From Pisaster brevispinus (lineage: Eukaryota; Echinodermata; Asteroidea; Forcipulatida; Asteriidae): DNA of 64,000 bases. The stretch covers positions 24,026,742-24,090,741 of the forward strand of contig JAMKCF010000003.1 of assembly GCA_023634235.1 (NCBI GenBank), written 5' to 3'. Within the stretch, counting starts at the first letter, position 1. Each line of letters opens with the position of its first letter. Below are positions 14,033 through 61,259 of the stretch, in pieces. The notes beneath the pieces were generated by a model, which saw only the letters and a program-made list of their open reading frames with translations, made no database searches and was not told the DNA's origin. The position numbers were made by a program, and so were the translations under genes.

Positions 14033-14350
14033 GTGTGTCATGGCCTAGCGGTTAAGAGCACCGGATTCAAGCTCTGGTGTTTGATCAGCAGAGTGTGGGT
14101 TCGAGTCCCAGTCGTGACACTTGTGTCCTTAAGCAAGACACTTAACCATGATTGCTTCGTAAAGTTGGGGAGGTAGTGCTTTCTGCTCTACCAGCCAGGC
14201 TTCTGATGGATGATACCCAAGCCTACATCCGTATGGACTGTAAAGGGGGGTAACCCTGTTTCAGTCCCAGGAGTAGGTGGCAACGGCCCCTGGAAAAATA
14301 GTTGATTGTAGCCCACACCAGGCCTTGTGTGTCTGGCGACAGTCTAATAA
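14033..14350 (+). mobile_element. tRNA-Leu-derived SINE, copy 1
   Basis: The head gtcatggcctagcggttaag, cttcaagctct-type anticodon arm and gtgggttcgagtcccag follow the layout of tRNA-Leu(CAA) with a long variable arm. The body (ttctgctctaccagccaggc, gggtaaccctgtttc, caggagtaggtggcaac) recurs at 30345-30718. It is flanked by two related segments (13963-14030 and 14460-14537) sharing gtaatgtagt, cttgcctgcc and gaaatgccatgga. Confidence 0.72.
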
Positions 14351-19200: not shown

Positions 19201-22200
19201 AAATTATTATACCAGCCCGCTTCATACTTCATGCTAATTGTGAAAGCGAAGCAAGTTTTCTTGCACAGGCTTGGAATTTCAACTTTGAGAGAAAACAAGG
19301 AAGGCAGCGGTAGCATTTCAAGAATAACTAATTACATACAAAACAGCATGAACTTTCGTAGCAACAACTATTTCATCAGATGCAATGAAGGGGACAAGCC
19401 AAGTACATGCTATAAATACAAGAAAGTAACGGGTGAATGAATCCAATACCAAAAGATGGAGTAGGGCAAGGCCATTTTCATTTTGCAAAGGGCACTTGGG
19501 AAAACTTACACTCCATGGACAAAGTTTTGAAGGGGCACCAAGGCCAAGACCCAGGGAAACACAACAGAGGCCCTCTGTGGCCTCCTTGTAATCCCAGGCC
19601 TACTGCATCACGATTGGCAAACAGCGCGTACTGACTGTTCACGTCACCATGATTTGCTTCGTATTCGCTCCTGCGTGAAGTATGGACCAGGCTTTCCTAC
19701 TCAGTGTGATATTCCTTACCCTCAGGAGCCATGACGTCGCTCTCTGTGGTGCAACTAAACCTCCGTTGTAGAATGTTCTCCATGTCATCCATGAAATCAA
19801 CAGTTTCCATTGTGGACCACATCGCCTCTCCATCTGTGGGTCGACAGACAATAACAGACATCATTCAATAACAATAATCAGTTCTTATGTATCCCTTTAT
19901 CTACAAACTTCCCTTAGTGCTTAAAAGTAGGGTCATACTGATGATGAAAACCCCCAAAAAACTGTGTAATTTCTACCCAAAAGTTTACTTGTTATAAAGA
20001 TGGTAATGGTGGTAAGCATCCTGCGAAATTAATCTTGTCTGAAACGCCCGTTGATAAGAAATCGAAAAACTTGAATCTCCTAACTCACCTCAAGGTGAGT
20101 TTTTGAGGTTAAAATTTCAGTGAATGTTGCCACCAAAGATGGGGTTGGTACCCGCTACATTTGGCTAAACGTGAATGGGATCGATGTTCTTGATGCAAAA
20201 ACCAAGACAGTTATTTGCTGTTTTCTCAACAAGTATAGTAGTTACAGTGTCTTTAAAGACAATTAGGCCAACAAATCAACATTACTTTGACAAAAACCCA
20301 ACCATGACCCTACCTTTAAAGATGGGTATGCTAAGTTTTCGAATTATTAAACCCATTTATATAGCCTTTGCAAGGGTTTACACACTTAAAGGTATAATCT
20401 GCTCCCAGAAACACCGGGGCAAACCCCGTATCTTAACAATAAGTGCACTGGATTTTTTTTACATGCATTACACAACGCATGGGACCAATGGCTTTAAATC
20501 CCGTCCGAAGGTAAAGCAATAATGGTCAAGTGCTTCCTCAAGGACATCAGTGTCAAGACCGGGAATCGAACCCACACTCTGCTGATCAGAAACACCAGAG
20601 CTCGAGTCCGGCCACTTCAGTCATATGAGATGGAGCTGACCTTTCTGCTTACAGTAACCAACTTGCCCACTTGAAATCAACTTCTAACTCCGCTGATTTC
20701 CAATAAAATCGAAACTTTCTAAAAAGTGTCATCTGCTCTTTTATCTCCTCTTGCACACTCTGCATTCTTATCCTGTCCTGCCTCCTTACGAGTGACAGCC
20801 CAGACCTCAGACATCAACCTACCTGTCTTCTTCGCTTGAGCTAGACTGATCAGGAAGTTGCTTGTTTGTATCAGCAAGACGTTATTGTCACCTTCGTAGG
20901 TACAGTTGGGGTCATGGTCATTGCGAATCTCACCGAAGCCACTGGCTGCAAAACAGTCAGAGTGAAAGTCATTGTACGTAGTAAACAAGATCTTTCAGAG
21001 GGTCAAAATCCGTGTTCGCATTGGATTGATAATTAACCGAGACCATAGGTAACATTCCAATGCGTAAATCTTACCGGTGTCCGCACTTGAATTATTTGAC
21101 GGAGGTAAACTAACCGCGATGATGGTGAAACAAACTGACTGACTAAATAAAAACACATGGGGGTGCTACGCCAGTGACCTTTAACTAGATGTGACAAAAT
21201 ACATGACCTAGCTTGTAACCAATGGTTGAAGAGAAGCACAGCAAATAAAAGTAAGAAAAACAACATAAGCAAAGGGACGCAATTTCTAAGTTCTGTATAC
21301 GGCCTTGACAACAATTAAACTACCTGTTAGACTTGGTTAAGTTACCTGGGTGAAATTGGACTGGACTTAAAATGGTCAAGTCACCCATTTTTTTGGTTAG
21401 TTTACCCCCAAAAGCCTAATGTGAACACTGCTATAGTAAATCTGAGGAAGAAAGAAATTGCTTCCTTCTTGACATTTGTGAAAGTATTCAAGGCTGTACA
21501 TTGGACCTAATTTCATAAAACTGCTTAAGAACAAAAAATAAGCTAAGCACAACAAAATTATGCTTACCAAAATAAAGTTACCTGTAAAATACCATATCAC
21601 ATGTACAATTTGTGACTGGTATCCTGCTCATTTCTGCTTAGCAGGAAGTTGTTAAACAGTATTTTCTGCTTAAGCAGCTCTATAAAATGGGCCCATAGAG
21701 TTGCTTAGGCACATACAGTAACAAAGCACAAGAAAAATTATGCTTACCAGAATAAGGTTACCAACCAAAATACCATGTAATATGTAAACTTACCATCTAA
21801 CACTGGTATCCTGCTTACATTTGCTTAGCAAACAAATGTTTAAAAAATTGTATGCTTATGCTCTATGATTGGGCCCTGTGTCCAATTTTTTAAAAAGCTT
21901 TAAACGAAAAATTGCTCGGCATTGAAAAATCTTGCTCGGCATTGAAATTCTTGCTGAACAACAATAGGTTACCAGCCAAACTGGCATGTACTAATACCAT
22001 TATTCTTATTTTAATGGATTTACCCCAGAGGAATCCATGGCCACCACAAGCCTCTCTACATTCCTGTATCGCATTCCTGGCTGTCCATGTTGTTAGGGGT
22101 TTATTGGCGCTGGTCAGAGCGTGGATCTCACGACTCATCCTCATCTGAAAAAACAACCCCAAACAACAACAACAACAACATCAGGTGAAATAAATAACAT

Positions 22201-25200
22201 ATTATCCTTTAGAAACCCTTTATAAATTGGCCAATCACAACAGCATGCCTAGAACCTATCCTTTAGGCTCCACCTCTTGATGCATTGGTCAAGAACCAGA
22301 TACACCGGCTTAGGCCAAAGTTTCAAACATCTTCACGGTCATGCAGAGAGTACAAGTTTTCAAGATCCTCTTCCCCCCCGCTCACAATTCAGACTTATCA
22401 ACAGTAATTTTTGCAATGTTTATGAATATACATTGTGTATGTAAAGTTTTGTTTGTACCCCCTAAAAAGCACCAAGTAAGAGTCTTAATTTGTAAGCTGT
22501 AGTAGTATTTTGTTTTTGCCGATTTATTTAGTGTTGTAAACGCTTTTTCATTATACAGAAAATGTGTGAATTTAATTTTCCTCCAGTATTTCTTGAGTTA
22601 AAAAATCAACATTTGATTCACCTTTTAAAGTTGTACATAGGCTCTGACCACACAACCCCCCACCTCCCACTCCCCCCATTGTGAAAATCTGAAACCGTGA
22701 AAGTGTTGAGAATTTTCGGACAGCCCCTACAACCCTTGAAACTTACTTGTCTTTCACTTTTGTCTCCGAGGACTGTGGCAATGACAAATTCATTATAGCC
22801 CTCGATCACGTGGAAGGTGAAAACATGCTGGGCATACATGGCTGCCACATACGGTAGTAATCGCCATTGCTGTAAAGAGAAGGACATTTGATAAATATCA
22901 ATCTTAGAATTGAATTTTTGACAACGGGTGACATGCACACTCGCAAATGTTTTTTGTGCCGGAAAATGGATTCCTGACAAAAACCCTGTTTAAAAATGTT
23001 CAGGGGAAGTTTCGATCAGTATGTTCCAAATTGTCCTAAAAAAAAAAGCTTTACTCCTTACGATGATCAACATATGCTGTTTGAAACATTGAGTTGTTCA
23101 AACAATCAGCTTCTTTTCAGCTACAACAAACTTAACCACTTTACGCCGGTTGGCGCATCTATCCGTCAAATATTTCTGGCCTCTGGCGGATGGTTTATTA
23201 CAGCCAGATGACTGACATGAATCCCCACCTGGATATTCCATTGTGTAGCGTGCGCAGGTGTGCAACTACTGCGCTACGCTTTGTTTGACTCGTACAAAGA
23301 GGGACAGTAGGTACTGGCAATCATGCCTCATAATATCTTTTTGTGGAGGTTATTGTGTAATCACTGATCCCAGACCTTTGGCCTGTTGTACAAATGTGGC
23401 ATACAAGAATAGAGGCTGCTGCCATTGTTTATCATTGTTTTTCGGCTCAATGGGAGGCAAGTCCGAGTGTACCCAAAATCGGCCGTGGCTTACAGTCTAG
23501 GGTTCGGCAAATCATGGCGAGTGCCTACTCAATTTTCTCACAAACACCAAATCCCAATTTTCTTTCAAACATAAAGTCCAGTGCTTATTACGAGAACCTT
23601 TGTTGTCTTTCCTTTGACAAGTCAGGGTTTCATTCCTTGCAAGGCTATTTTCAAAGGAAAATGATCACTCAAGAAGCTCCAAAAAGTCCTGAAAAGTAAC
23701 ACCAAAGGTGGGCACAGAAAACTTTTTGGAATACCAACCTGAAGTGGTTAAAGAGATAATATATGCATCAGGTTAAAATAAGTAGCATTTAGTTACTCAC
23801 CTGCAGTTGATATTCTATTACCGAGATTTCCTTCTCAGCTGTAGGTCCAAATTGTTTGCGTACCGCTGAGTAACGGAGAGCGATGCTCAATGCCTTTTTT
23901 AGACTGGTGACGGCCATGCTCGCTATCCCTACCCGGCCGGCTGATAGCGCCCCCAAAGCTGTGCTGAATCTCTTCGTTGGATCCTACACACAAATTGGTC
24001 AAGTTAAATGTTTTTAAAACATCAGCTCTTTTTCGAAACCTCAGCTTCAGCTCTGACTCCGGCTAAGGCTCCATCAGTAAAACAGGCAGATAGGGCTTAA
24101 GCCACAGCCAAAGCCGAAGCTGCAGTTTCAAAAACGTCCATAGAGAAGTATTTATGCAAATCAAGAAGAAATTCTCAATATTCCACTACTTGATGTAAAG
24201 TTGGTTCTGGTATCATTCATTCTAGAAACACTGTCTAGGAAATTGTTAACTTAAAAGGACTTTTAAATAAAAATGTACAGACCAATTTGAAATGTGTTGT
24301 ATGGAAAGTTTTGGGAATTTGACAAAAATTGCACTTGAAGGGTATCAAAGATAGTGCCAATTAAATGAGATTTCTAGAGACTCATAAGAACTCTATCTAT
24401 TGGAAAATGAGTGGATCACACAACTGAATTTGACCTTGGAGCCCTTTTTCATTTGCAATTTCATGACTATGAAAGTAAATCAGTTGGGAATATTTGTCTC
24501 AAGGATAAGCACTAGTTTGAAATGTTCATTTACAATTGTTTTATTTTTTATTACTGAACCTGTACAGTGTCTACTTTGGGTTTGGACAATTTTTTAACAG
24601 GGTCCAACAAAAAGCTTCTACAAAGTTTCTCACTACAACAATTGTCTTTCTTAGCGGTGCATGTATTATTACAGAATTGGTGAGGATTTAATTTCATTCT
24701 GAAAGCTTACTGATTATGAAGTTCATACTAGAACCATTTCTTTTCTGTGAAATATTTCCCTCAGACGGTTGAAGTCATATTCGAGAAAACTGTATCTGAA
24801 CACCTCAACATAACACAACAGCTGATTTCGGTTGTTAACCAAAATTAAGGACATTGTGGTCACACACTGAAAATTGTGAATGGTTTTTTATTTCTTTCTC
24901 CCGACTCAAACAACCGATTAAGCCCAAATTTTCACAGGTTTGTTATTTCATATACATGGTTGATCACACAAAGCATGAACACTGTCCGCCACAATTTTTG
25001 TCAGACCTATCCTATCCAATAGGCCAATCCTGTGCAAATCACCCAAAGTCTTTTCCATACTTTGCACTGTGCAGAGCCTTGTTTGTTCCTGAAAGCCCCT
25101 AAATATCTCTCATACTCTTGACATTCTATAAGAGTGTTTCTAATCGTTGAATCAAGGGTCAAGACTCTGGTCCGAATTCCAGAGGCCAGATGTACTTGAT

Positions 25201-28200: not shown

Positions 28201-31200
28201 CACCTGGACTATTGGAGAGAAATCTGACTGGTCCTCAGGTGTTTTATCTGGCATCTGGCATCTGGCCAGCGGACCACTGTTGAGGCAGAATGCTGCTGTG
28301 ATATCCACAGTCGCAAAACTGTGATCTGAATTGATATTATAATTGAGGGATAGAACTGTAACCGCCTAACTCAAAATATTTAAATGCAAATGAATTTTTT
28401 TTTATGTAAACTCTCATGTCTTCTTCCCCTTGGTTCTTCATCTGAAAGACGTATTGTATTGATTCCATACACTTGTCTGTCTTGATGTTGCAACTTTACA
28501 ACCATGTGTTATCTCTTTAGCGAGTATGCTTGGTTCTGAGAAGAACCGGAGGTTTGTTTGTCATCAAGGGATGAGGAATGGAACTTTACAGTTGCTCCGC
28601 ACAAGTTTTAGGAACTAATATTTATAACACACCTCTTACTGGTTCTCTAGCCTGGTTGGCTGAGACACGGTCACATGGGGTTCAATAACATAGGCTAGTC
28701 AGGCCTCGAAATAACCCACGGCACCCCCACAGCCATTGCCGTGGTGCCCTGTGCTTTTGCTGTGGTGCCCTTTGCAAAGTTCCAATACAAATTTACATTT
28801 TCCTCATACAGTGCCCCCTCAAGAGAGAAGTTCAAGGCCTGGGCTAGTGCATGAAATTTGCGCCACCTTGAACTAGACACGCAACAAGTCATCGCGCGTG
28901 TGGAAAATGCAGTGGAAGTATTTTCCGAACAGGGCACTATACTCAGAATCTTTGACTGGTTACAGAGACCTCTTATGATGTGAACAGTGAACTGCAAGCA
29001 AAAAACTGAATCTGAAACTAAAAGAGGTTCTTTTTTCATTGAGTTTAGTTGACTTGCGTTGAAGTAAATCGTTGAATTAAAACAGTTGAGCTATACAAAA
29101 AACTGATAATGTTTTCCATATTTTGGGCTGAGGTGTGTTATAAAACACATATGGACTGGCATAATTCGGTCACTAGTGCATGTCTTTCTCCCCTCCGGCC
29201 CGTGAGTGACCAGAAGAGGGTTCTATTTCCCTCTGCAGACCTACTCTCATGACCTCATTGTCAGTCCAATGCATATATTATTACGTAAGTATATTAAATA
29301 TTAATAAAACAAGAAATTGGGCCAAATTAACCGGCCGTACTTACAATGCATTTATCTTGGTTACAACACATCGGGTGACCTTAAAATATACTTTGTGAAA
29401 CTCAAGTTGTGACCAAAATAAAGCTTGTGTGTGCCTTGACTGCAGTCATTGTTTCTAGAATTCTCAACTTCCAATTTCTAAAAAAAATGTACAAATGTAC
29501 AGCTAAAAATGCATGGCATTGCACGTATTTAACACACCATACTGCTAGGGTTAAATAACTTTGTGGCTTATGGTGTGTTTATTGAAAACTCCAGGATGGA
29601 AATTAATTTACTTTACCTACTAAAAACCAAAAACAATGATGTACTTTCCCTACAAGTAATATTTGTTCACTTTAGCAGCTCTATGAAGCTGGGTTGAGAT
29701 CTCATTTGGACACTTACTTCAAAGCTGGATGCTTGGTCTCGGAACTTGAGGTGGCGCTCCGTGCCCAGACTCATTATGGAGCCACCGAACATCTGTAAGA
29801 AAATCAACGAACAATGATACTATTTCATCATTTTTAAGATGTCATTTTTTTTTCATACATGTAGCTGGTCCTTTTTAACTAATGCATCAGAAATGATTAA
29901 GTTATTCCCATTTCCAAACATGGGACTTGCTTTCAACAACATTGAAAAGGGACAATAGAAACTCTAATGAACACAATATATTTGTTCCGTGATTTCCATG
30001 GCCGACAAAAACATTAAACATTATTCTGTAAACTTTGAAACACAGTTCATCACACAAGCCTATTACGTGTGTGTTTGCGTGGGCCCAGCGACCAATAACA
30101 CATACTGCAGAACATTCTAAATTTATACCAATATCCTGCTCCTAAACACACAAGAGTTCTCATATGTGCAACAGGCACAATTGAGAGAATGAACAGAAAA
30201 GAAACTTTTTAACATTGTGAGCTGAACTATTTCACAAAAATGACAAAAATCTGATATCCAAAACCTGCAGGCCATTGATTGTTAATCCCATACGATTTGA
30301 ATTATGCAGGCTGAAAATGGACCCTCATATCTAGGACTCTGTAACTGTGGCAGGTCAAAGCCGAGCGGTCTAGTTCACTGGACCCAAGCTCTGGTTTTGT
30401 CAGCAGCAGAGTGTGGGTTAGATACCCAACAAGAAACCTTGTGCCCTTATTTGCTTCGTAAAAAGTTGGGAAGGTAGTGCATTCTGCTCTACCAGCCAGG
30501 CTCCTAGTGGATGATACCCATGCCTACATCCTTACGGACTGTAAAGGGGGTAACCCTGTTTCAACCCCAGGAGTAGGTGGCAACATGCCCCTGGTGGCAG
30601 TTGATTTGGGTCAATATCCCAAATCAGTTAAGTGTAGCCCTCACCTTGAAATGGCTGTCCGTAGCCTTTTGATGTTACATGATCTCTCATAAAAAAAATT
30701 AAAAATACTTTTTTTTTAAGCACAGAGGAAGAGTCCTACGTAGGGCTAACCTGATAGTTGAGAATGTACTTAGCCGAGAGGGACCAGTTGTACATGCCCA
30801 GACCGTTGATCATCCACTGCATCTGAGTCATGTTCTCCATCAGCTTCTCCCAGGGGAGGATGTTGAGATTCATGAGATGCTGAAGACGCCTCTGGGTAGC
30901 CTCTCGCTCATCGGCCATCGTTGTGTCATGACGGAGATGCTGGAAGACGCGTTCCTTCTCCATCATGCTCCAAAGATCACGCTGATGGGGTAAGGATTAC
31001 AACAATGTGGTCAAAATTTCAGAAGAGTGACTTTGCTTAGTAAATACGGACCTGGCTGATGCCTCCTCAGTCTATTAGTATTATTATATCTTTCTGGTAA
31101 TGAAACCAAGGAACCCTCAAAAGTGCCTTGCAGTGTAACCTGTGGGCCTTAAGTACAGGTGAATGTGTACTTGTGTAGAGAAGTTGTTGAAGAAATCTCA

Positions 31201-33130: not shown

Positions 33131-33290
33131 TGCGGTAGTTTGACTAACCTGGGCTTTTAAAAATACACACCACACACACACACACTGGTGACTCATCAAT
33201 ACAAAGTCAACTTTGGGTCTAGTGACTAGTTAGTGTACCATTTCACAATAAGTATCGTATGATTTTTTCTAATCCATCGACAACAATCAA

Positions 33291-33866
33291 ACCGAGCTGA
33301 AGCTAGCACAGTATTGGGCCCAAACTAGCCAGCCGCATATTCGCGGAACGGCCAGCCGCGTATTCACGAAATTAGAACACATGCAGTATAGGGAGGTGAC
33401 AAAATGGCTCATTTGGCTCATTTCTGTCGGCGAATCCGTTACGTTATCCGAACAAATACTGAAATTCTAGCCATAACTTGCAGATTTTCTCTTGATAATA
33501 TTGAAATGTTATAGCTATTTATCATTGAAAAGCAATAAACAAACAAAAACAAGTCGCTAAATAACAGAAAATTAGCCGCAAACACGGAGACAATGTGCGT
33601 GTGTTATGTCAATTTTTTTTGTTATGCAGTTTAAATACTATAACATAATTTGAAAAGAGTTTGTACCCTTCGTTATGAATAAAAAAGGAAGTTTTAGCCC
33701 AGAATCTTGAAGACTAGGCACTGGGCATACCACATTTTTGAGCTGGCTAATTTGGTCCACTAATTAGTAGTTATACAGACACCATTTTCCATCTAAAACA
33801 CACGCAATTGCATATGCGGTTGAGTCAACTACGTCTTGTGTAAAGAATTGGTACCCTTCATTATGA
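33291..33866 (+). repeat. Left terminal inverted repeat
   Basis: Pairs with 43607-44177. Shared landmarks in order: gctagcacagtattgggccc, ccagccgcgtattcacgaaa, aaaatggctcatttggctca, ctgtcggcgaatccgt, gacaatgtgcgtgtgttatg, gagtttgtacccttc, gagctggctaatttggtcca, atctaaaacac, gcggttgagtcaactac. Confidence 0.88.
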
Positions 33867-34009
33867 ATAGTAACATGTTAGAAAATTATCTGTTAACATG
33901 CATTATGCAGCTTTTAATATTCATGACCTATGGAAGGCAAACAACGCCCTCTTTTGGTTCTGCCTCAACTGAGCGGGAAAACATATCGCAGCCGGGCCCA
34001 GTTGCAAAT

Positions 34010-34531
34010 ACCGTGAGGACAGTCAGCGCAACTAAATACGAAGAGTAGGTCGTGGTAGTGCATAGTACAAGACCCCGGTTCGAAGCGCAGCATTTAACTC
34101 TTTTTTTTTAACTGTTGTGTAACATATTATTTATAACGTAAATATAAAGCACAATTTATGAGCTGGCAAGTTAGCGCAAGTGGATAGTTTAAGGTAGTGC
34201 AAATCGCAAGAACCAGGTTCGAGCCCAGGCTGGTTTTTGTTTTTTTATCTTACTTTAAAAGGTAAAGAAATATTTGTATCTAAAAAAAAGCAAACTTCCA
34301 GTAGATCAGTAAGTTAGCAAAACTAGTTAAGTGATGGTCTTGCACATCGCAAAAGCCGGGTTCGAGCCCAGGTAGGCTCAAACCAAAGAACTGATTTCTT
34401 TTTACCTTCATAAAAATTTAGATTAACACTATATATTGGAACAAACAGAGGGTGGTGGTGGGCAGTAACTTAGCCCAGAGGTAGGACGAGAGAATACAAG
34501 AGAGAAGGTGAGAGGATCGAATCACGGCGGG
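34010..34531 (+). repeat. Series of four tRNA-like (B-box) modules
   Basis: At about 34078, 34216, 34359 and 34514 the sequence reads ggttcgaagcg, ggttcgagccc, ggttcgagccc and ggatcgaatca, that is, B-box-like cores spaced 138-155 bp apart. The first three are followed by T-rich tracts. In modules 2 and 3 the core is flanked by nearly complementary 5-mers (ccagg/ccagg, ccggg/ccagg; 4 of 5 pairs), as in a T arm. Acceptor and D arms are not convincing, so these are tRNA-like remnants, not tRNA genes. Confidence 0.5.
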
Positions 34532-37500
34532 GCCCCAGCTGCTGCCAACTGCAACTGGGCCCCAGCTGCTGCCAACTGCAACTGGGCCCCAGCTGCTGCC
34601 AACTGCAACTGGGCCCCAGCTGCTGCCAACTGCAACTGGGCCCCAGCTGCTGCCAACTGCAACTGGGCCCCAGCTGCTGCCAACTGCAACTGGGCCCCAG
34701 CTGCTGCCAACTGCAACTGGGCCCCAGCTGCTGCCAACTGCAACTGGGCCCCAGCTGCTGCCAACTGCAACTGGGCCCCAGCTGCTGCCAACTGCAACTG
34801 GGCCCCAGCTGCTGCCAACTGCAACTGGGCCCCAGCTGCTGCCAACTGCAACTGGGCCCCAGCTGCTGCCAACTGCAACTGGGCCCCAGCTGCTGCCAAC
34901 TGCAACTGGGCCCCAGCTGCTGCCAACTGCAACTGGGCCCCAGCTGCTGCCAACTGCAACTGGGCCCCAGCTGCTGCCAACTGCAACTGGGCCCCAGCTG
35001 CTGCCAACTGCAACTGGGCCCCAGCTGCTGCCAACTGCAACTGGGCCCCAGCTGCTGCCAACTGCAACTGGGCCCCAGCTGCTGCCAACTGCAACTGGGC
35101 CCCAGCTGCTGCCAACTGCAACTGGGCCCCAGCTGCTGCCAACTGCAACTGGGCCCCAGCTGCTGCCAACTGCAACTGGGCCCCAGCTGCTGCCAACTGC
35201 AACTGGGCCCCAGCTGCTGCCAACTGCAACTGGGCCCCAGCTGCTGCCAACTGCAACTGGGCCCCAGCTGCTGCCAACTGCAACTGGGCCCCAGCTGCTG
35301 CCAACTGCAACTGGGCCCCAGCTGCTGCCAACTGCAACTGGGCCCCAGCTGCTGCCAACTGCAACTGGGCCCCAGCTGCTGCCAACTGCAACTGGGCCCC
35401 AGCTGCTGCCAACTGCAACTGGGCCCCAGCTGCTGCCAACTGCAACTGGGCCCCAGCTGCTGCCAACTGCAACTGGGCCCCAGCTGCTGCCAACTGCAAC
35501 TGGGCCCCAGCTGCTGCCAACTGCAACTGGGCCCCAGCTGCTGCCAACTGCAACTGGGCCCCAGCTGCTGCCAACTGCAACTGGGCCCCAGCTGCTGCCA
35601 ACTGCAACTGGGCCCCAGCTGCTGCCAACTGCAACTGGGCCCCAGCTGCTGCCAACTGCAACTGGGCCCCAGCTGCTGCCAACTGCAACTGGGCCCCAGC
35701 TGCTGCCAACTGCAACTGGGCCCCAGCTGCTGCCAACTGCAACTGGGCCCCAGCTGCTGCCAACTGCAACTGGGCCCCAGCTGCTGCCAACTGCAACTGG
35801 GCCCCAGCTGCTGCCAACTGCAACTGGGCCCCAGCTGCTGCCAACTGCAACTGGGCCCCAGCTGCTGCCAACTGCAACTGGGCCCCAGCTGCTGCCAACT
35901 GCAACTGGGCCCCAGCTGCTGCCAACTGCAACTGGGCCCCAGCTGCTGCCAACTGCAACTGGGCCCCAGCTGCTGCCAACTGCAACTGGGCCCCAGCTGC
36001 TGCCAACTGCAACTGGGCCCCAGCTGCTGCCAACTGCAACTGGGCCCCAGCTGCTGCCAACTGCAACTGGGCCCCAGCTGCTGCCAACTGCAACTGGGCC
36101 CCAGCTGCTGCCAACTGCAACTGGGCCCCAGCTGCTGCCAACTGCAACTGGGCCCCAGCTGCTGCCAACTGCAACTGGGCCCCAGCTGCTGCCAACTGCA
36201 ACTGGGCCCCAGCTGCTGCCAACTGCAACTGGGCCCCAGCTGCTGCCAACTGCAACTGGGCCCCAGCTGCTGCCAACTGCAACTGGGCCCCAGCTGCTGC
36301 CAACTGCAACTGGGCCCCAGCTGCTGCCAACTGCAACTGGGCCCCAGCTGCTGCCAACTGCAACTGGGCCCCAGCTGCTGCCAACTGCAACTGGGCCCCA
36401 GCTGCTGCCAACTGCAACTGGGCCCCAGCTGCTGCCAACTGCAACTGGGCCCCAGCTGCTGCCAACTGCAACTGGGCCCCAGCTGCTGCCAACTGCAACT
36501 GGGCCCCAGCTGCTGCCAACTGCAACTGGGCCCCAGCTGCTGCCAACTGCAACTGGGCCCCAGCTGCTGCCAACTGCAACTGGGCCCCAGCTGCTGCCAA
36601 CTGCAACTGGGCCCCAGCTGCTGCCAACTGCAACTGGGCCCCAGCTGCTGCCAACTGCAACTGGGCCCCAGCTGCTGCCAACTGCAACTGGGCCCCAGCT
36701 GCTGCCAACTGCAACTGGGCCCCAGCTGCTGCCAACTGCAACTGGGCCCCAGCTGCTGCCAACTGCAACTGGGCCCCAGCTGCTGCCAACTGCAACTGGG
36801 CCCCAGCTGCTGCCAACTGCAACTGGGCCCCAGCTGCTGCCAACTGCAACTGGGCCCCAGCTGCTGCCAACTGCAACTGGGCCCCAGCTGCTGCCAACTG
36901 CAACTGGGCCCCAGCTGCTGCCAACTGCAACTGGGCCCCAGCTGCTGCCAACTGCAACTGGGCCCCAGCTGCTGCCAACTGCAACTGGGCCCCAGCTGCT
37001 GCCAACTGCAACTGGGCCCCAGCTGCTGCCAACTGCAACTGGGCCCCAGCTGCTGCCAACTGCAACTGGGCCCCAGCTGCTGCCAACTGCAACTGGGCCC
37101 CAGCTGCTGCCAACTGCAACTGGGCCCCAGCTGCTGCCAACTGCAACTGGGCCCCAGCTGCTGCCAACTGCAACTGGGCCCCAGCTGCTGCCAACTGCAA
37201 CTGGGCCCCAGCTGCTGCCAACTGCAACTGGGCCCCAGCTGCTGCCAACTGCAACTGGGCCCCAGCTGCTGCCAACTGCAACTGGGCCCCAGCTGCTGCC
37301 AACTGCAACTGGGCCCCAGCTGCTGCCAACTGCAACTGGGCCCCAGCTGCTGCCAACTGCAACTGGGCCCCAGCTGCTGCCAACTGCAACTGGGCCCCAG
37401 CTGCTGCCAACTGCAACTGGGCCCCAGCTGCTGCCAACTGCAACTGGGCCCCAGCTGCTGCCAACTGCAACTGGGCCCCAGCTGCTGCCAACTGCAACTG

Positions 37501-40500
37501 GGCCCCAGCTGCTGCCAACTGCAACTGGGCCCCAGCTGCTGCCAACTGCAACTGGGCCCCAGCTGCTGCCAACTGCAACTGGGCCCCAGCTGCTGCCAAC
37601 TGCAACTGGGCCCCAGCTGCTGCCAACTGCAACTGGGCCCCAGCTGCTGCCAACTGCAACTGGGCCCCAGCTGCTGCCAACTGCAACTGGGCCCCAGCTG
37701 CTGCCAACTGCAACTGGGCCCCAGCTGCTGCCAACTGCAACTGGGCCCCAGCTGCTGCCAACTGCAACTGGGCCCCAGCTGCTGCCAACTGCAACTGGGC
37801 CCCAGCTGCTGCCAACTGCAACTGGGCCCCAGCTGCTGCCAACTGCAACTGGGCCCCAGCTGCTGCCAACTGCAACTGGGCCCCAGCTGCTGCCAACTGC
37901 AACTGGGCCCCAGCTGCTGCCAACTGCAACTGGGCCCCAGCTGCTGCCAACTGCAACTGGGCCCCAGCTGCTGCCAACTGCAACTGGGCCCCAGCTGCTG
38001 CCAACTGCAACTGGGCCCCAGCTGCTGCCAACTGCAACTGGGCCCCAGCTGCTGCCAACTGCAACTGGGCCCCAGCTGCTGCCAACTGCAACTGGGCCCC
38101 AGCTGCTGCCAACTGCAACTGGGCCCCAGCTGCTGCCAACTGCAACTGGGCCCCAGCTGCTGCCAACTGCAACTGGGCCCCAGCTGCTGCCAACTGCAAC
38201 TGGGCCCCAGCTGCTGCCAACTGCAACTGGGCCCCAGCTGCTGCCAACTGCAACTGGGCCCCAGCTGCTGCCAACTGCAACTGGGCCCCAGCTGCTGCCA
38301 ACTGCAACTGGGCCCCAGCTGCTGCCAACTGCAACTGGGCCCCAGCTGCTGCCAACTGCAACTGGGCCCCAGCTGCTGCCAACTGCAACTGGGCCCCAGC
38401 TGCTGCCAACTGCAACTGGGCCCCAGCTGCTGCCAACTGCAACTGGGCCCCAGCTGCTGCCAACTGCAACTGGGCCCCAGCTGCTGCCAACTGCAACTGG
38501 GCCCCAGCTGCTGCCAACTGCAACTGGGCCCCAGCTGCTGCCAACTGCAACTGGGCCCCAGCTGCTGCCAACTGCAACTGGGCCCCAGCTGCTGCCAACT
38601 GCAACTGGGCCCCAGCTGCTGCCAACTGCAACTGGGCCCCAGCTGCTGCCAACTGCAACTGGGCCCCAGCTGCTGCCAACTGCAACTGGGCCCCAGCTGC
38701 TGCCAACTGCAACTGGGCCCCAGCTGCTGCCAACTGCAACTGGGCCCCAGCTGCTGCCAACTGCAACTGGGCCCCAGCTGCTGCCAACTGCAACTGGGCC
38801 CCAGCTGCTGCCAACTGCAACTGGGCCCCAGCTGCTGCCAACTGCAACTGGGCCCCAGCTGCTGCCAACTGCAACTGGGCCCCAGCTGCTGCCAACTGCA
38901 ACTGGGCCCCAGCTGCTGCCAACTGCAACTGGGCCCCAGCTGCTGCCAACTGCAACTGGGCCCCAGCTGCTGCCAACTGCAACTGGGCCCCAGCTGCTGC
39001 CAACTGCAACTGGGCCCCAGCTGCTGCCAACTGCAACTGGGCCCCAGCTGCTGCCAACTGCAACTGGGCCCCAGCTGCTGCCAACTGCAACTGGGCCCCA
39101 GCTGCTGCCAACTGCAACTGGGCCCCAGCTGCTGCCAACTGCAACTGGGCCCCAGCTGCTGCCAACTGCAACTGGGCCCCAGCTGCTGCCAACTGCAACT
39201 GGGCCCCAGCTGCTGCCAACTGCAACTGGGCCCCAGCTGCTGCCAACTGCAACTGGGCCCCAGCTGCTGCCAACTGCAACTGGGCCCCAGCTGCTGCCAA
39301 CTGCAACTGGGCCCCAGCTGCTGCCAACTGCAACTGGGCCCCAGCTGCTGCCAACTGCAACTGGGCCCCAGCTGCTGCCAACTGCAACTGGGCCCCAGCT
39401 GCTGCCAACTGCAACTGGGCCCCAGCTGCTGCCAACTGCAACTGGGCCCCAGCTGCTGCCAACTGCAACTGGGCCCCAGCTGCTGCCAACTGCAACTGGG
39501 CCCCAGCTGCTGCCAACTGCAACTGGGCCCCAGCTGCTGCCAACTGCAACTGGGCCCCAGCTGCTGCCAACTGCAACTGGGCCCCAGCTGCTGCCAACTG
39601 CAACTGGGCCCCAGCTGCTGCCAACTGCAACTGGGCCCCAGCTGCTGCCAACTGCAACTGGGCCCCAGCTGCTGCCAACTGCAACTGGGCCCCAGCTGCT
39701 GCCAACTGCAACTGGGCCCCAGCTGCTGCCAACTGCAACTGGGCCCCAGCTGCTGCCAACTGCAACTGGGCCCCAGCTGCTGCCAACTGCAACTGGGCCC
39801 CAGCTGCTGCCAACTGCAACTGGGCCCCAGCTGCTGCCAACTGCAACTGGGCCCCAGCTGCTGCCAACTGCAACTGGGCCCCAGCTGCTGCCAACTGCAA
39901 CTGGGCCCCAGCTGCTGCCAACTGCAACTGGGCCCCAGCTGCTGCCAACTGCAACTGGGCCCCAGCTGCTGCCAACTGCAACTGGGCCCCAGCTGCTGCC
40001 AACTGCAACTGGGCCCCAGCTGCTGCCAACTGCAACTGGGCCCCAGCTGCTGCCAACTGCAACTGGGCCCCAGCTGCTGCCAACTGCAACTGGGCCCCAG
40101 CTGCTGCCAACTGCAACTGGGCCCCAGCTGCTGCCAACTGCAACTGGGCCCCAGCTGCTGCCAACTGCAACTGGGCCCCAGCTGCTGCCAACTGCAACTG
40201 GGCCCCAGCTGCTGCCAACTGCAACTGGGCCCCAGCTGCTGCCAACTGCAACTGGGCCCCAGCTGCTGCCAACTGCAACTGGGCCCCAGCTGCTGCCAAC
40301 TGCAACTGGGCCCCAGCTGCTGCCAACTGCAACTGGGCCCCAGCTGCTGCCAACTGCAACTGGGCCCCAGCTGCTGCCAACTGCAACTGGGCCCCAGCTG
40401 CTGCCAACTGCAACTGGGCCCCAGCTGCTGCCAACTGCAACTGGGCCCCAGCTGCTGCCAACTGCAACTGGGCCCCAGCTGCTGCCAACTGCAACTGGGC

Positions 40501-42361
40501 CCCAGCTGCTGCCAACTGCAACTGGGCCCCAGCTGCTGCCAACTGCAACTGGGCCCCAGCTGCTGCCAACTGCAACTGGGCCCCAGCTGCTGCCAACTGC
40601 AACTGGGCCCCAGCTGCTGCCAACTGCAACTGGGCCCCAGCTGCTGCCAACTGCAACTGGGCCCCAGCTGCTGCCAACTGCAACTGGGCCCCAGCTGCTG
40701 CCAACTGCAACTGGGCCCCAGCTGCTGCCAACTGCAACTGGGCCCCAGCTGCTGCCAACTGCAACTGGGCCCCAGCTGCTGCCAACTGCAACTGGGCCCC
40801 AGCTGCTGCCAACTGCAACTGGGCCCCAGCTGCTGCCAACTGCAACTGGGCCCCAGCTGCTGCCAACTGCAACTGGGCCCCAGCTGCTGCCAACTGCAAC
40901 TGGGCCCCAGCTGCTGCCAACTGCAACTGGGCCCCAGCTGCTGCCAACTGCAACTGGGCCCCAGCTGCTGCCAACTGCAACTGGGCCCCAGCTGCTGCCA
41001 ACTGCAACTGGGCCCCAGCTGCTGCCAACTGCAACTGGGCCCCAGCTGCTGCCAACTGCAACTGGGCCCCAGCTGCTGCCAACTGCAACTGGGCCCCAGC
41101 TGCTGCCAACTGCAACTGGGCCCCAGCTGCTGCCAACTGCAACTGGGCCCCAGCTGCTGCCAACTGCAACTGGGCCCCAGCTGCTGCCAACTGCAACTGG
41201 GCCCCAGCTGCTGCCAACTGCAACTGGGCCCCAGCTGCTGCCAACTGCAACTGGGCCCCAGCTGCTGCCAACTGCAACTGGGCCCCAGCTGCTGCCAACT
41301 GCAACTGGGCCCCAGCTGCTGCCAACTGCAACTGGGCCCCAGCTGCTGCCAACTGCAACTGGGCCCCAGCTGCTGCCAACTGCAACTGGGCCCCAGCTGC
41401 TGCCAACTGCAACTGGGCCCCAGCTGCTGCCAACTGCAACTGGGCCCCAGCTGCTGCCAACTGCAACTGGGCCCCAGCTGCTGCCAACTGCAACTGGGCC
41501 CCAGCTGCTGCCAACTGCAACTGGGCCCCAGCTGCTGCCAACTGCAACTGGGCCCCAGCTGCTGCCAACTGCAACTGGGCCCCAGCTGCTGCCAACTGCA
41601 ACTGGGCCCCAGCTGCTGCCAACTGCAACTGGGCCCCAGCTGCTGCCAACTGCAACTGGGCCCCAGCTGCTGCCAACTGCAACTGGGCCCCAGCTGCTGC
41701 CAACTGCAACTGGGCCCCAGCTGCTGCCAACTGCAACTGGGCCCCAGCTGCTGCCAACTGCAACTGGGCCCCAGCTGCTGCCAACTGCAACTGGGCCCCA
41801 GCTGCTGCCAACTGCAACTGGGCCCCAGCTGCTGCCAACTGCAACTGGGCCCCAGCTGCTGCCAACTGCAACTGGGCCCCAGCTGCTGCCAACTGCAACT
41901 GGGCCCCAGCTGCTGCCAACTGCAACTGGGCCCCAGCTGCTGCCAACTGCAACTGGGCCCCAGCTGCTGCCAACTGCAACTGGGCCCCAGCTGCTGCCAA
42001 CTGCAACTGGGCCCCAGCTGCTGCCAACTGCAACTGGGCCCCAGCTGCTGCCAACTGCAACTGGGCCCCAGCTGCTGCCAACTGCAACTGGGCCCCAGCT
42101 GCTGCCAACTGCAACTGGGCCCCAGCTGCTGCCAACTGCAACTGGGCCCCAGCTGCTGCCAACTGCAACTGGGCCCCAGCTGCTGCCAACTGCAACTGGG
42201 CCCCAGCTGCTGCCAACTGCAACTGGGCCCCAGCTGCTGCCAACTGCAACTGGGCCCCAGCTGCTGCCAACTGCAACTGGGCCCCAGCTGCTGCCAACTG
42301 CAACTGGGCCCCAGCTGCTGCCAACTGCAACTGGGCCCCAGCTGCTGCCAACTGCAGTTGG
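34532..42361. repeat. Satellite: 290 tandem units of 27 bp
   Basis: Unit 1 begins at 34532. 289 units translate identically (APAAANCNW in the frame starting at 34532) and unit 290 (42335-42361) differs by AAC to AGT, giving ANCSW. I noticed no other variant. The unit is 18/27 G+C, in AT-rich surroundings, and contains CAGCTG, two CAACTG and a GGGCCC at the unit junction. Because 27 is a multiple of 3 and the unit has no stop in any frame, all six frames are open for the full array. Confidence 0.98.
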
Positions 42362-42585
42362 TTGTTTATCCCTTCTTCAACATTCTTCGGACTTTTCGAA
42401 TTCAATAATTGCAGGGATTGATATTTTAAACAAACTTGATATCTTATTTCGCATTATTTGATAGCTTCCTCTTTAAAAATGTTATCAGCAAAGAACATTG
42501 TTTTCTTATTTGTTGTAAGTCTTCCCCCGTTCGAGGTCTCTTGTGTATTTGTCCGTCTCTTACTTACTTTTAATTTTTAAAAACA
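42362..42585. other. Unique spacer between satellite and 200-bp repeats
   Basis: AT-rich, with one B-box-like cccgttcgaggtctc near 42526-42540. Otherwise nothing was recognised. Confidence 0.5.
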
Positions 42586-43788
42586 ATTCATAATGAAGGG
42601 TACAAATTCTTTACAAGAGGTAGTTGACTCTACCGCATAAGCATTTGTGTGTGTTTTAGATGGAAAATGGCGTCTGTATAACTGTGGTTAATTAACCACT
42701 AATTAGTGGACCAAATTAGCCAGCTCAAACATTTGATATGCCCAGTGTATCAGTCTTAAAGATTCTGGACTAAAAAACAAAAAAATTCATAATGAAGGGT
42801 ACAAATTCTTTACAAGAGGTAGTTGGCTCTACCGCATAGGCATTTGTGCATTTTTTAGATGGGAAATGACGTCTGTATAACTGTTGCTAATTAACCACTA
42901 ATTAGTGGACCAAATTAGCCAGCTCAAAAATTTGATATGCCCAGTGTATCAGTCTTCAAGATTCTGGACTAAAAAACAAAAAACAATTCATAATGAAGGG
43001 TACAAATTCTTTACAAGAGGTAGTTGTCTCTACCGCATAGGCATTTGTGCATTTTTTAGATGGGAAATGGCGTCTGTATAACTGTTGCTAATTAACCACT
43101 AATTAGTGGACCAAATTAGCCAGCTCAAAAATTTGATATGCCCAGTGTATCAGTCTTAAAGATTCTGGACTAAAACTTCCACTTTTATTCATAATGAAGG
43201 GTACAAATTCTTTACAAGAGGTAGTTGACTCAACTGCATAGGCATTTGTGTGTGTTTTAGATGGAAAATGGCGTCTGTATAACTGTGATTGCTTAACCAC
43301 TAATTAGTGGACCAAATTATCCAGCTCAAAAATTTGGTATGCCCAGTGTATCAGTCTTCAAGATTCTGGACTAAAAAACAAAAAACAATTCATAATGAAG
43401 GGTACAAATTCTTTACAAGAGGTAGTTGGCTCTACCGCATAGGCATTTGTGCATTTTTAGATGGGAAATGGCGTCTGTATAACTGTTGCTAATTAACCAC
43501 TAATTAGTGGACCAAATTAGCCAGCTCAAAAATTTGATATGCCCAGTGTATCAGTCTTAAAGATTCTGGACTAAAACTTCCACTTTTATTCATAATGAAG
43601 GGTACAAATTCTTTACAAGAGGTAGTTGACTCAACCGCATAGGCATTTGTGCGTGTTTTAGATGGAAAATGGCGTCTAGCTAATTTGGGTTAATTAACCA
43701 CTAATTAGTGGACCAAATTAGCCAGCTCAAAAATTTGATATGCCCACTGTATCAATCTTCAAGATTCTGGACTAAAACTTTCACTTTT
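42586..43788. repeat. Six tandem copies of a 200-bp unit
   Basis: Units start (attcataatgaagggtacaa) at 42586, 42785, 42986, 43187, 43388 and 43588; a degenerate seventh start is at 43789. Each has ctttacaagaggtagttg, gatgg-aaatggcgtct (one variant), accactaattagtggaccaa, gccagctcaaa and gattctggactaaaa. Two tail types occur (aacaaaaaacaattcat and cttccacttttattcat). The last copy merges with the right inverted repeat. Confidence 0.93.
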
Positions 43789-44177
43789 ATTCGTAATGAA
43801 GGGTACAAACTCTTTTCAAAATTTGTTTTTGTATTTAAACAGCATAAAACAATTTATGACATAACACACGCACATTGTCTTCGTGTTTGTGGCTAATTTT
43901 TTGTTTTTTTGCGACTTTTTTTGTTTGTTTATTGTTTTTTGTTTAGAAAATAGCTATAACAGCTCAATATTATCCAATGAAAAACTGTAAGTTATGGCTA
44001 GAATTTTAGAACTCGTTCGGATAAAGTTACGGATTCGCCGACAGAAATGAGCCAAATGAGCCATTTTGTCACCTCCCTGTACTGCATGTGTTCTAATTTC
44101 GTGAATACGCGGCTGGCCGTTCCTCGAATACGCGGCTGGCTATTTTGGGCCCAATACTGTGCTAGCTTCAGTTCGGT
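43607..44177 (-). repeat. Right terminal inverted repeat
   Basis: Reverse-complement partner of 33291-33866, ending gctagcttcagttcggt and followed directly by acaatcaa. The ORFs at 43998-44244 on both strands are within it and are not genes. Confidence 0.88.
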
Positions 44178-44682
44178 ACAATCAAACACTGGTGACTGTA
44201 AATTTCAGTTAGCACTATTTTTGGTCCCAAAACACTACTTTTGATCCTTGTACCAAATTTGACTGTTCGTCAACGACCGTCAATGTATTTTGTGTGGGGT
44301 GTATTTCTTCTTCTTTTTAAACACAAGTAATAAAACTTTCAACGTTATTTGTTGGATCTTTTTAAAGAAATCTTTTAACAGATCTTCTTCAATCAAGTAT
44401 CAGAGCCCCAATGTAATTGATTAACAAATTAGCCCATAAAAAGCAGACTTCAAAACAAGTGTTCCCCAAGCATCTCAATATGGATTCATCAAGAGTAGGT
44501 AGGTGCTGACGATGCTTTGCGAGGTGTTTTGGAGGATGTTTCAGACATAGTGATTTTTCTTCAGATGAAAACGAGGAAGATGTCAGTGAAGATGAGGCGA
44601 TGTCTATGAGCAGCTATGGCATTGAAAGCGCAGATGAGGACAGTGATGAGCCGGTAGCCCCCGCCCCCCCCCCACTCAAACC

Positions 44683-45000: not shown

Positions 45001-45638
45001 GTCGATGTTCCGTCCCAACTTGACAATTGTCCCAACTATAGTTGGGACTGGTCCCAACTTGAGTGTTAAAGTTGGGACGTCCCAACTATAGTTGGGATCA
45101 CCCATAGAGTTCAACAGGACACCGTGCACGGCCGTGATCAATCATGGGTCGTGATGCGATCGGCGTTAATTAACAAGATTCTTTATTTCAAACCCGGGTC
45201 TCGGCTCTGTACAAACTCATGTCCAAACTGGTTTGGAATGATAGTATATCGCTCACAATGGACCGCTAACTCAGTGTAAATAGTGTTTTAGAGGGTTCTA
45301 ACAGCGGACAGCTCAGGCTACCAGCAGCCTCATGCTGAGTGCTGCCGGGTGACGCTTTCTTTTCTACCTCTATGGTCTCTCAGTAGGCCTACGCATTTTA
45401 GTTTCCCTTCTCTCCGAAAAACAAAATCCTAATTAATCTCAAATAATCTCAAGGGAAAGTGGTCTTAAAAACTTCATACTATGATACTTACTACTATTAT
45501 GTTTTTAGTTTATTCGTGGGGTGCTTTGTGTTCACTGTGATCCCAACTACAGTTGGGACGCCCCAACTTTAACACTCAAGTTGGGACCAGTCCCAACTAT
45601 AGTTGGGACGATCATCAAGTTGGGACGGAACATCGACA
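45001..45638. mobile_element. 638-bp MITE with about 100-bp inverted ends
   Basis: 45001-45103 and 45537-45638 are inverted copies: gtcgatgttccgtcccaact, tcccaactatagttgggac, ggtcccaacttgagtgttaa. The ends are themselves built from small cccaacta/tagttggg palindromes. It splits the piggyBac pseudogene between its N-terminal and central parts. The inner 430 bp has no coding signal. Confidence 0.85.
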
Positions 45639-46740
45639 ACACCAATGAGTATGGTGCTTCAAAGCGAGGGCGGCAGTGAAAGGACGTCGTCATGATGGAG
45701 CTTCGATCAACCATCGGCCCCCTGCTGATTTATCTCGGCCTTACCAAGTCCGGACACGAGAGGGCCCGCTGCTTCTTGAGGGAAGTTTTTTCTTTATAGA
45801 CCCACCTGTCAAGCAACGATGTCCGGGACAAGGTTCCAGGACATTCTCACAATGATGCGGTTCGATGACAGGGGTACACTGGAGGAACGGCGATTGGTCG
45901 ATAAGTTTGCACCAATCAGAGAGATTTTTGAGATGTTTACTGATTCATGTCGCCGGTATTACAGCCCGGGTGAATGTCTCACTATTGACGAGCAACTTGT
46001 CGCATTTCGTGGGAGATGCCCTTGGCAATAATATGCCCAGTAAACCCGCCAAGTACGGATTTAAATGCTGGGTATGCGTGGACAGTATATTAGCACCCAG
46101 TATGTTTGTAACATGCAGCCATACATTGGGAAGGAGACAGACGAGAAACTGAACTTGGTGCCCGTGTCGTCAAAGACATGGTGCGGCCCTACTTTGGAAG
46201 TGGACGAAACGTCACTTGTGACAATTTCTAATATAGTAAGGGTCTGACAATCGTGGGAACCGTGACGGGAAACAATCGTAGTAAGTCCCGAAGGATATGC
46301 GTAAAGAGAACACAAAACGCAAGGCGGCGGGTTCGTTACGGTTCATGTTTACGGACAACATGAAACTTTTTTCTTACGTGCCCAATTAATTAAAAAAGAA
46401 CAGAAATGTGACCATACTGTCCACCGTGACAATGTCTTTCAAGAAGCTTCAGTGAAGCCAGAGATCATACATTAGTATAACTCCACAAAGTCTGGCGTGG
46501 GTACGGTCGACCAATGTACAGTGTGTATACAACTACTCCAGAAAGACCAAGCGTTGGCCGCCGGTTGGTGATGTTCTTCAACTAATAATAATTGATAAAC
46601 CTTTCAGCCATCAACGCCTATGTCCTCTGGCTTCAGCTGAACCCCGGATGGCACCAAGCGGAGAGCAGTCGTGGTCAAACAGCTGTGGCTCTGGCTAATA
46701 AACACTTTCGTACTACGTACCACTGCTGTTGATGATCACA

Positions 46741-55950: not shown

Positions 55951-56620
55951 CGTGTCGTGGCCGAACGGATAAGAGCACCGAACTCAAGCTCCGGTGTTTC
56001 TGATCGGCGGGGTGTGGGTTCGAGTCTCGGTCTTGACACTTGTGTCCTTTAACCCTAAAGGGCCCAAATCCTTCAATATCCTCATTGCCATAGTGCAGGA
56101 TTAAGAAGGAGTTGGGTTTTTAGAGATCTGCAGCACAGGAGGATTTAGAAGGGTTTGGGCTACAATGAGTTTTTGTTTGGGGAGGATTTAGCAGGACTTG
56201 GGCTATCAGGCTGTTTTTACATACACTGTACATGTACATGTAGGAGGATTTAGAAGGTTTTAGGTCTCATGCAGCTTGGCCAAAATAGGATTCTGAAGGT
56301 TTTGGGCTTTTAGGGGTGGAAATTATAATAAAGCTGACTTTTCTTTTTTGTTTTGCAACTAAATTGTTTTTTGTTAGCTTGGTCAGTAAATCACAAAGTT
56401 GATTTAACTACTGTCACAAAAGGATTTAGAAGGATTTGGGCTAATATGTATATTTACAATAAGGAAAAGGAAATAGAAGGATTTGGGCACTTTAGGTTTA
56501 TGACAACTTTAATCTGAAGGATATTGAAGGATTTGGGCAATATGTTTACCGAAGGGTCTAGTCTGTTAGGGTTAAGCAAGACATTTAACCATTATACATC
56601 CAAGTTTCAGATCTTTTTGT
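55951..56620 (+). mobile_element. tRNA-Leu-derived SINE interrupted by another element
   Basis: The head gtcgtggccgaacggataag, ctcaagctccggtgtttctg, ggtgtgggttcgagtctcgg runs to cttgtgtcctt at 56049. It resumes after 56571 with ttaagcaagacatttaacca. The uninterrupted order (cttgtgtccttaagcaagac) exists at 14120-14140. Confidence 0.75.
56053..56571. mobile_element. 519-bp TTAA-flanked MITE with CCCTAA ends
   Basis: It is flanked by TTAA on both sides (56049-56052 and 56572-56575), begins ccctaaagggcccaaatcct and ends ctgttaggg. The subterminal ccttcaatatcc is mirrored by ggatattgaagg near 56520-56533. The interior holds several gaaggatttgggc-like repeats. TTAA duplications and CCCT-type ends are the signature of piggyBac-superfamily elements. 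It is non-coding. Confidence 0.78.
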
Positions 56621-60845: not shown

Positions 60846-61259
60846 ACAAATATTGACTGCTTCAAGTGCTATGGTCAAAGCTACGACTCTCGAGGTGATC
60901 CTTCCAGCATGATAAATTTTTCCGAGGTCAAGCTGAAAATCAGAAAAGAACATTTCGGGGATCACCAAGGGAGTCATAGTTTTAATCATACATAGCCTGA
61001 GTAAACCCAATCAATATATTATTATTTTTAAACACCTCATACAAATTTTGTGCTCAGACGCCTAGGAGCATGCACCGAGGCAGCTGCTGTTGCTATGGGT
61101 GGACTGTAGCACAGTGGTTGCTATGGGACAGTGGTGTTGGATCGCATGTACAGCGTGTCGCATTTGCACGGCTTTCTAGTAAATATGAGACATCATGTGA
61201 TGCGCTCTAAACCATGTAAACCAATCAAAAGGCAGACACATTGTAAGGGGTGTTATAAT
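60846..61259. repeat. Second copy of the 5953-6379 repeat element
   Basis: atacaaatattgactgcttc, gtgctatggtcaaag, ctcgaggtgatcc, ggggatcacca, ggctttctagtaaat, catgtgatgcgctctaaacc, tgtaaggggtgttataat occur in the same order. The palindrome is more decayed here. Confidence 0.65.

Follow-up and report, generated by a model that had tools for sequence, protein, structure and literature searches.

A probable foldback-type DNA transposon of Pisaster brevispinus with a uniform 27-bp satellite array in its middle domain

Tetris, a foldback transposon of Drosophila virilis, has, as published, terminal inverted repeats (TIRs) that combine a flanking domain with an outer domain, the latter an array of ~220-bp repeats of which the number varies; its middle domain is non-coding and variable, its target-site duplications (TSDs) measure 8-10 bp, and its authors suggest Mutator, on the basis of the TSDs and of earlier proposals for foldback elements (PMC4079207). 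Galileo, a Drosophila element of the P superfamily, has in its published accounts long, internally repetitive and unequal TIRs, two-TIR copies without transposase, one of them 9,021 bp long, and a TSD of 7 bp, sometimes 8, of the GTANTAC type (PMC4168063, PMC3688188, PMC3573991). Tm1, a Mutator/Foldback family of root-knot nematodes, is reported to have composite TIRs in which the number of tandem motifs differs between the ends; the two TIRs of one element are 93% alike on average, and some members carry a cargo other than transposase (PMC3169594). The TIRs of Rehavkus, a MULE or a close relative, are given as 26-400 bp long, and a minisatellite directly precedes the one at the 3' end (PMC6446971). 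The internal tandem array of the Xenopus MITEs miDNA4 and Xstir/Xmix can, according to their accounts, grow into a satellite (PMC12628747, PMC9659126), and the Cg_HINE Helentrons of the oyster are described as non-autonomous, with satellite-like central repeats (PMC7492417).

We analysed a 64-kb window of P. brevispinus DNA (the whole stretch of 64,000 nucleotides, contig JAMKCF010000003.1), in which a sequence-only reading had proposed an inverted-repeat mobile element with a satellite as cargo. The coordinates proposed for this element were correct when both duplications are included (Table 1). The first bases at 33291 and 44177 pair (ACCGAGCTGA and ACCGAACTGA, respectively), and the inverted ends do align from the first base, as had been claimed: 516 of the 595 alignment columns were identical (87%), with 20 gap columns, over 579 bp of the left arm. 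The TIRs extend to both ends of the element, as they do in DNA transposons of the TIR order (cut-and-paste), and the exact 8-bp direct repeat announced outside the ends, ACAATCAA, was found to adjoin both of them in this single copy (n = 1 for a fixed length). On the + strand of the window ACAATCAA occurs only twice, each time abutting the element, and its complement is found at three other places. A flanking repeat due to chance had been named as a possible refutation; 68 of 1,998,570 random position pairs outside the satellite showed an 8-bp match, i.e. ~3.4e-5 per pair. When the flanks (39-40% GC, CpG observed/expected ~0.6) are joined via a single duplication, they read ATCGACA-ACAATCAA-ACACTGGTGAC, the form that an empty site would have. 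We also observed a 12-mer, ACACTGGTGACT, with exactly two occurrences in the window, one lying ~90 bp beyond the left duplication (33182-33193) and the other directly outside the right duplication (44186-44197). A rough estimate gives a 1-2% chance of such a pair for two 400-bp flanks.

Table 1. Features of the inverted-repeat element; positions count from the first base of the window
Feature	Position	Strand	Remarks
Inverted-repeat element	33291-44177 without duplications; 33283-44185 with both		within the 64-kb window
Left 8-bp target-site duplication, ACAATCAA	33283-33290	.	exact match to 44178-44185
Left TIR, outer flanking domain, 371 bp	33291-33661	+	aligned with right end from base 1
Subterminal motif pair (A/G)GCCAGCCGCRTATTC, 23 bp apart	33327-33365	+	mirror pair at 44103-44141
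L1, single ~201-bp-type repeat of left arm, 188 bp	33662-33849	+	82-87% identical to R1-R6
Left interior: three, perhaps four, diverged ~140-bp tandem units with Pol III B-box-like motif	33870-34529	+	
Short inverted stretch resembling the 27-bp unit	33985-34006	-	13 exact bases from 33994
27-bp satellite, 289 identical units + 24 bp	34530-42356	+	TRF, 289.9 copies at 100%
Right interior	42357-42604	+	first bases complete 14-bp palindrome CCAACTGCAGTTGG, which starts at 42348 in the array
Six ~201-bp repeats of right arm, R1 (outermost) to R6	42605-43807	-	
Right TIR, outer flanking domain, 370 bp	43808-44177	-	from alignment; motif pair at 44103-44141
Right 8-bp target-site duplication, ACAATCAA	44178-44185	.	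exact match to left copy

Both arms consist of an outer domain of ~370 bp followed by repeats of ~201 bp, of which there are six on the right and a single shortened one on the left (L1, which lacks ~14 bp through a 14-bp gap, among other gaps). A boundary motif, TGTACCCTTC, marks the transition, at an offset of 371 (left arm) or 370 (right arm), and a seventh boundary motif of the right arm starts at 42604. The long TIRs thus contain internal tandem repeats, as in foldback elements, the variation in their number (six versus one) being seen between the arms of one copy. R2 was 99.5% identical to R4, as against 87.5% to its neighbour R3, and the right-arm repeats are partly organised in a 401-bp higher-order pattern (401-bp period in TRF); this mosaic and this period point to an exchange of two-unit blocks. 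The arms, whose outer domains have 37-38% GC and a CpG observed/expected of 1.3, are most alike at their very ends, with 169 of 180 positions identical in the outermost 180 bp, compared with 307 of 358 at positions 181-540 (Fisher p = 0.006; the 180-bp cut was set once the bins had been inspected, and the comparison leaves out gap columns as well as bin 541-600 (42/58), the latter because the TIR alignment ends at 579). The outer domains also contain the subterminal motif (A/G)GCCAGCCGCRTATTC, which with up to 3 mismatches had four matches in the window, all within the two TIRs at mirror positions, compared with 0.17 expected from shuffles. In Galileo, the most proximal site of transposase binding is placed ~70 bp from the element end (PMC3688188); on this analogy the motif pair is a possible candidate for transposase binding. 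Neither this pair, nor the ~201-bp arm repeats, nor the tandem units of the left interior appeared in the sequence-only reading. No second TIR or ~201-bp arm repeat was found elsewhere in the 64-kb window. Searches of viral_contigs with exact patterns taken from the TIR, from the satellite and from the 201-bp repeat returned 0 matches, as did a search of genome_contigs with one exact TIR pattern; these misses say little, because the two collections consist of viral and prokaryote sequence.

The tandem units of the left interior are spaced 139-143 bp apart and carry a B-box-like motif, GGTTCGA, which is present three times on one strand, together with one GGATCGAATC. T runs follow unit 1 (34101-34109) and, with one interruption, unit 2 (34234-34246). 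The relationship between the first three units was supported by resampling, since the score was reached by 0/500 resampled sequences for units 2 and 3, 0/500 for units 1 and 2, and 2/500 for units 1 and 3. Pairings with unit 4 were unsupported (64/500, 487/500 and 100/500 with units 1, 2 and 3, respectively), and we therefore give the count as three, perhaps four; the satellite begins inside the region of this fourth unit. ARAGORN detected no tRNA gene in the window, and the Rfam tRNA model gave no match with E up to 10. Because neither recognises the units, we call them Pol III-promoter-like rather than tRNAs. Rfam matches to mir-1451, mir-589, SSRC41 and mir-434 were below the gathering scores and were taken as chance. 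The GGTTCGA motif was also observed in three of the four copies (at 14098, 20572 and 56017) of a dispersed repeat family of the window (14037-14293, 20514-20611, 30354-30594 and 55952-56049), which by its class is probably a tRNA-derived SINE.

The middle of the element is occupied by 7.83 kb of a single 27-bp satellite, in agreement with what had been announced, and no variant was found in it. When the array was cut into units, 289 of 290 were identical, the last one being a truncated perfect copy. The absence of variants in 7,827 bp (95% upper bound ~0.04%) is to be compared with a difference of ~13% between the arms, and suggests that the array reached its present state after the arms had split, or that it is continually homogenised, or that it was smoothed in assembly. 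The array makes up 72% of the element and has 67% GC without CpG. Hairpin-driven amplification was also considered, but the DNA folds of the unit and its dimer on both strands had z-scores of +1.15 to -1.82, and even in the best case 11 of 200 shuffles folded as well; folding was not used as evidence.

The statement that there is no coding capacity inside the element was right in substance. We scanned 20 ORF pieces of the element with Pfam, comprising 16 of the 19 stop-to-stop ORFs of at least 45 codons outside the array (7/7 and 9/12) and pieces of four of the six frames that cross it, and found no match to a transposase family. Ten matches of short ORFs were below the family cut-offs (E 1.5e-05 to 0.059; GRF zinc finger, 0.0072) and were taken as chance or repeat artefact. 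The one match above its cut-off, that of the translated array to Wza_C, had no single stretch that passed alone, and it was rejected as a repeat artefact. Formally, the array can be read through in all six frames, but this is no sign of a gene, because the same held for 22,590 out of 100,000 shuffled units (mononucleotide shuffling). A 180-residue piece of the translated satellite was scored against 7,992 candidates, a capped list, none of which was a relative at E<=0.001.

Ten ORFs elsewhere in the window, also examined with Pfam, yielded exon pieces of acyl-CoA oxidase and collagen, which are suggestive of an animal, and a fragment of a piggyBac-type transposase; no homologue was obtained with a query the size of an exon. 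The acyl-CoA oxidase pieces lie on the minus strand at 21893-22989 (PF22924, E 1.5e-11, above the cut-off, and 0.0049, below it). The piggyBac-type fragment (45780-46028; PF13843, E 4.4e-15) was the only transposase among these ten ORFs. It lies 1.6 kb to the right of the element, has four short relatives and belongs to a locus (45001-46028) with a ~101-bp inverted repeat (45001-45101 and 45537-45637, 95%). Because piggyBac uses TTAA sites, the fragment is unlikely to represent the mobiliser of the present element. The window further contains a minisatellite at 8841-9790, with periods of ~87 and ~171 bp and three stop-free stretches (339 and 146 codons, plus strand; 160 codons, minus strand), as well as two self-complementary stretches, at 17373-17736 (374 columns, 72%) and at 5953-6120 (171 columns, 84%; relatives near 60840-61036), which are possible small palindromic MITEs.

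We conclude that the element is probably a DNA transposon of the foldback type, non-autonomous and moved by cut-and-paste, with a recently amplified satellite in its middle domain. The proposal that a non-autonomous DNA transposon carries a satellite within it remains the best reading, while the length and the composite arms make foldback type a better description than MITE type. That the element has been mobile is what the anatomy of this one copy suggests, and it might also spread the satellite, as had been proposed; counting against the present reading are the single copy in the window, the lack of a transposase match in the 20 ORF pieces and the ACCGA terminus. In this scheme the subterminal motif pair, and perhaps the arm repeats of ~201 bp as well, would be binding sites of a transposase encoded elsewhere, which would bring the ends together and create an 8-bp duplication on inserting the element. 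The unequal arms, with six repeats in the right one and one in the left, may stem from unequal exchange or gene conversion that altered the number of arm repeats and shuffled them, and a very recent amplification of the 27-bp unit in the middle domain, through slippage, unequal exchange or rolling-circle reinsertion, would have produced the 7.8-kb array.

From the length of the duplication and the type of arms, the transposase is most likely Mutator-like or P/Galileo-like; we place Mutator-like first, with about an even chance of being right, and P-like next. TSDs of 8 bp are made by hAT, P and Merlin elements as well. Elements of the hAT superfamily have, besides this TSD, short TIRs with a YARNG-like start, and although the duplication agrees, the present TIR starts with ACCGA and is ~580 bp long. 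We know of no superfamily terminus that ACCGA matches. Helitrons and Helentrons have neither TIRs at their ends nor a TSD, and the presence of both argues against them. The duplication ACAATCAA is, in this one copy, not of the GTANTAC type, which lowers the case for Galileo itself, not for the P superfamily. With 8 bp it lies within the 8-11 bp given for the Mutator superfamily (PMC6446971), a range that is not specific.

To state that no named family has this architecture was too strong, since Tetris, Rehavkus, miDNA4 and Xstir are in print. We could assign the ends to no named family, and the architecture combines known features. Tetris, as described, resembles the present element in the order of its domains and in TSD length (a likeness of architecture), and satellite arrays arise inside it, as may have happened here; however, its satellite is the TIR repeat itself, whereas here it is a separate unit of 27 bp in the middle domain. 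Galileo shares the long, repetitive and unequal TIRs, but differs by its GTANTAC-like TSD, compared with ACAATCAA, and no transposase is found here. The likeness to Tm1 lies in composite TIRs with an unequal number of tandem motifs at the two ends; Tm1 differs by a 9-bp TSD, an arm motif of mostly 14 bp and other termini, and no large satellite figures in the account of it that we consulted (PMC3169594). Rehavkus has, like our element, long TIRs and an internal tandem array, but also a 9-bp TSD and a transposase gene, and it is listed from arthropods and annelids (PMC6446971). miDNA4 and Xstir/Xmix are likewise non-autonomous inverted-repeat elements with a tandem array, but miDNA4 belongs to Tc1/mariner, the MITEs measure ~400 bp and the accounts consulted describe no composite foldback arms (PMC12628747, PMC9659126). 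Cg_HINE is, similarly, a non-autonomous mobile element carrying satellite-like repeats, though of the Helentron class. What is unusual here is the share of the array (72%), its uniformity, and the fact that the amplified unit is other than the TIR repeat; in a limited literature search, we found no published element combining a large array share, uniformity and a non-TIR unit.

Other origins have to be weighed against this. A ~580-bp segment could have been duplicated in inverted orientation around a local satellite by a rearrangement, next to a coincidental 8-bp repeat, without ever having been mobile. The single known copy and the ~13% divergence of the arms would agree with this, and the second direct repeat in the flanks (ACACTGGTGACT, 33182 and 44186) might hint at a local rearrangement. 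We nevertheless consider such an origin very unlikely, because on either side the first paired base is directly adjoined by the 8-bp repeat (~3.4e-5 by chance), the similarity of the arms is highest in their outer part, where a transposase would act, and the composite arms resemble foldback elements as published (PMC4079207). It is also unlikely that the uniformity or the length of the array is largely an artefact of assembly or consensus building on a shorter or more variable array, though the uniformity could partly be an assembly effect. The complete lack of variants, while the arms and the left-interior units have diverged, would be explained in this way; however, the array ends cleanly, the TIRs and the duplication pair across it, and a recent amplification yields the same pattern.

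A more serious possibility, though less likely than not, and one that is compatible with the main explanation, is that a satellite pre-existing in the genome was captured by, or inserted into, a real transposon. The composition of the array (67% GC without CpG, vs 37-38% GC and CpG observed/expected 1.3 in the outer arm domains) speaks for it, and capture has been proposed for miDNA4 by Scalvenzi and Pollet, as told in PMC12628747. Against it stands a short inverted stretch in the left interior that is a possible, weak candidate for a remnant or seed of the satellite. Its 13 exact bases, which extend to 18 identical columns out of 20 with one gap, are the only exact match of 13 bases to the unit that the window contains once the array and its edges are set aside, and this length was reached by none of 200 shuffles of the left interior (maximum 12). 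Yet the seed match is not extreme, because shuffles of the right arm region reached 13 as well, as did those of the left flank, and its weakness is again in favour of capture. The right interior contained no satellite-like counterpart above shuffles. Among 167 overlapping chunks, the one bearing the seed ranked first in two of three scoring schemes and outside the top eight in the third. The inverted match at 33994 is therefore weakly consistent with growth of the satellite in place, its statistics being marginal. A further reading, which we regard as quite unlikely, goes beyond the preferred one of a foldback transposon with a recently amplified satellite: the 27-bp unit would be born from the inner sequence of the element, amplified in place and moved as a ready-made 7.8-kb array, with the Pol III-like units keeping the domain transcribed, in a foldback family of self-growing satellites. 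If this were true, a single mobile element would be the source of a satellite distinct from its own TIR repeats and also the vehicle by which that satellite is dispersed.

How satellites start and how they reach new places is an open question. In models published so far, as they are presented in PMC12628747 and PMC4079207, a satellite grows inside a transposon and then leaves it. A locus with intact ends, an intact duplication and a uniform array of 290 units would represent an early stage of such growth and exit, for which a single locus is insufficient alone; if copies with different numbers of units exist, the steps of growth would be readable directly.
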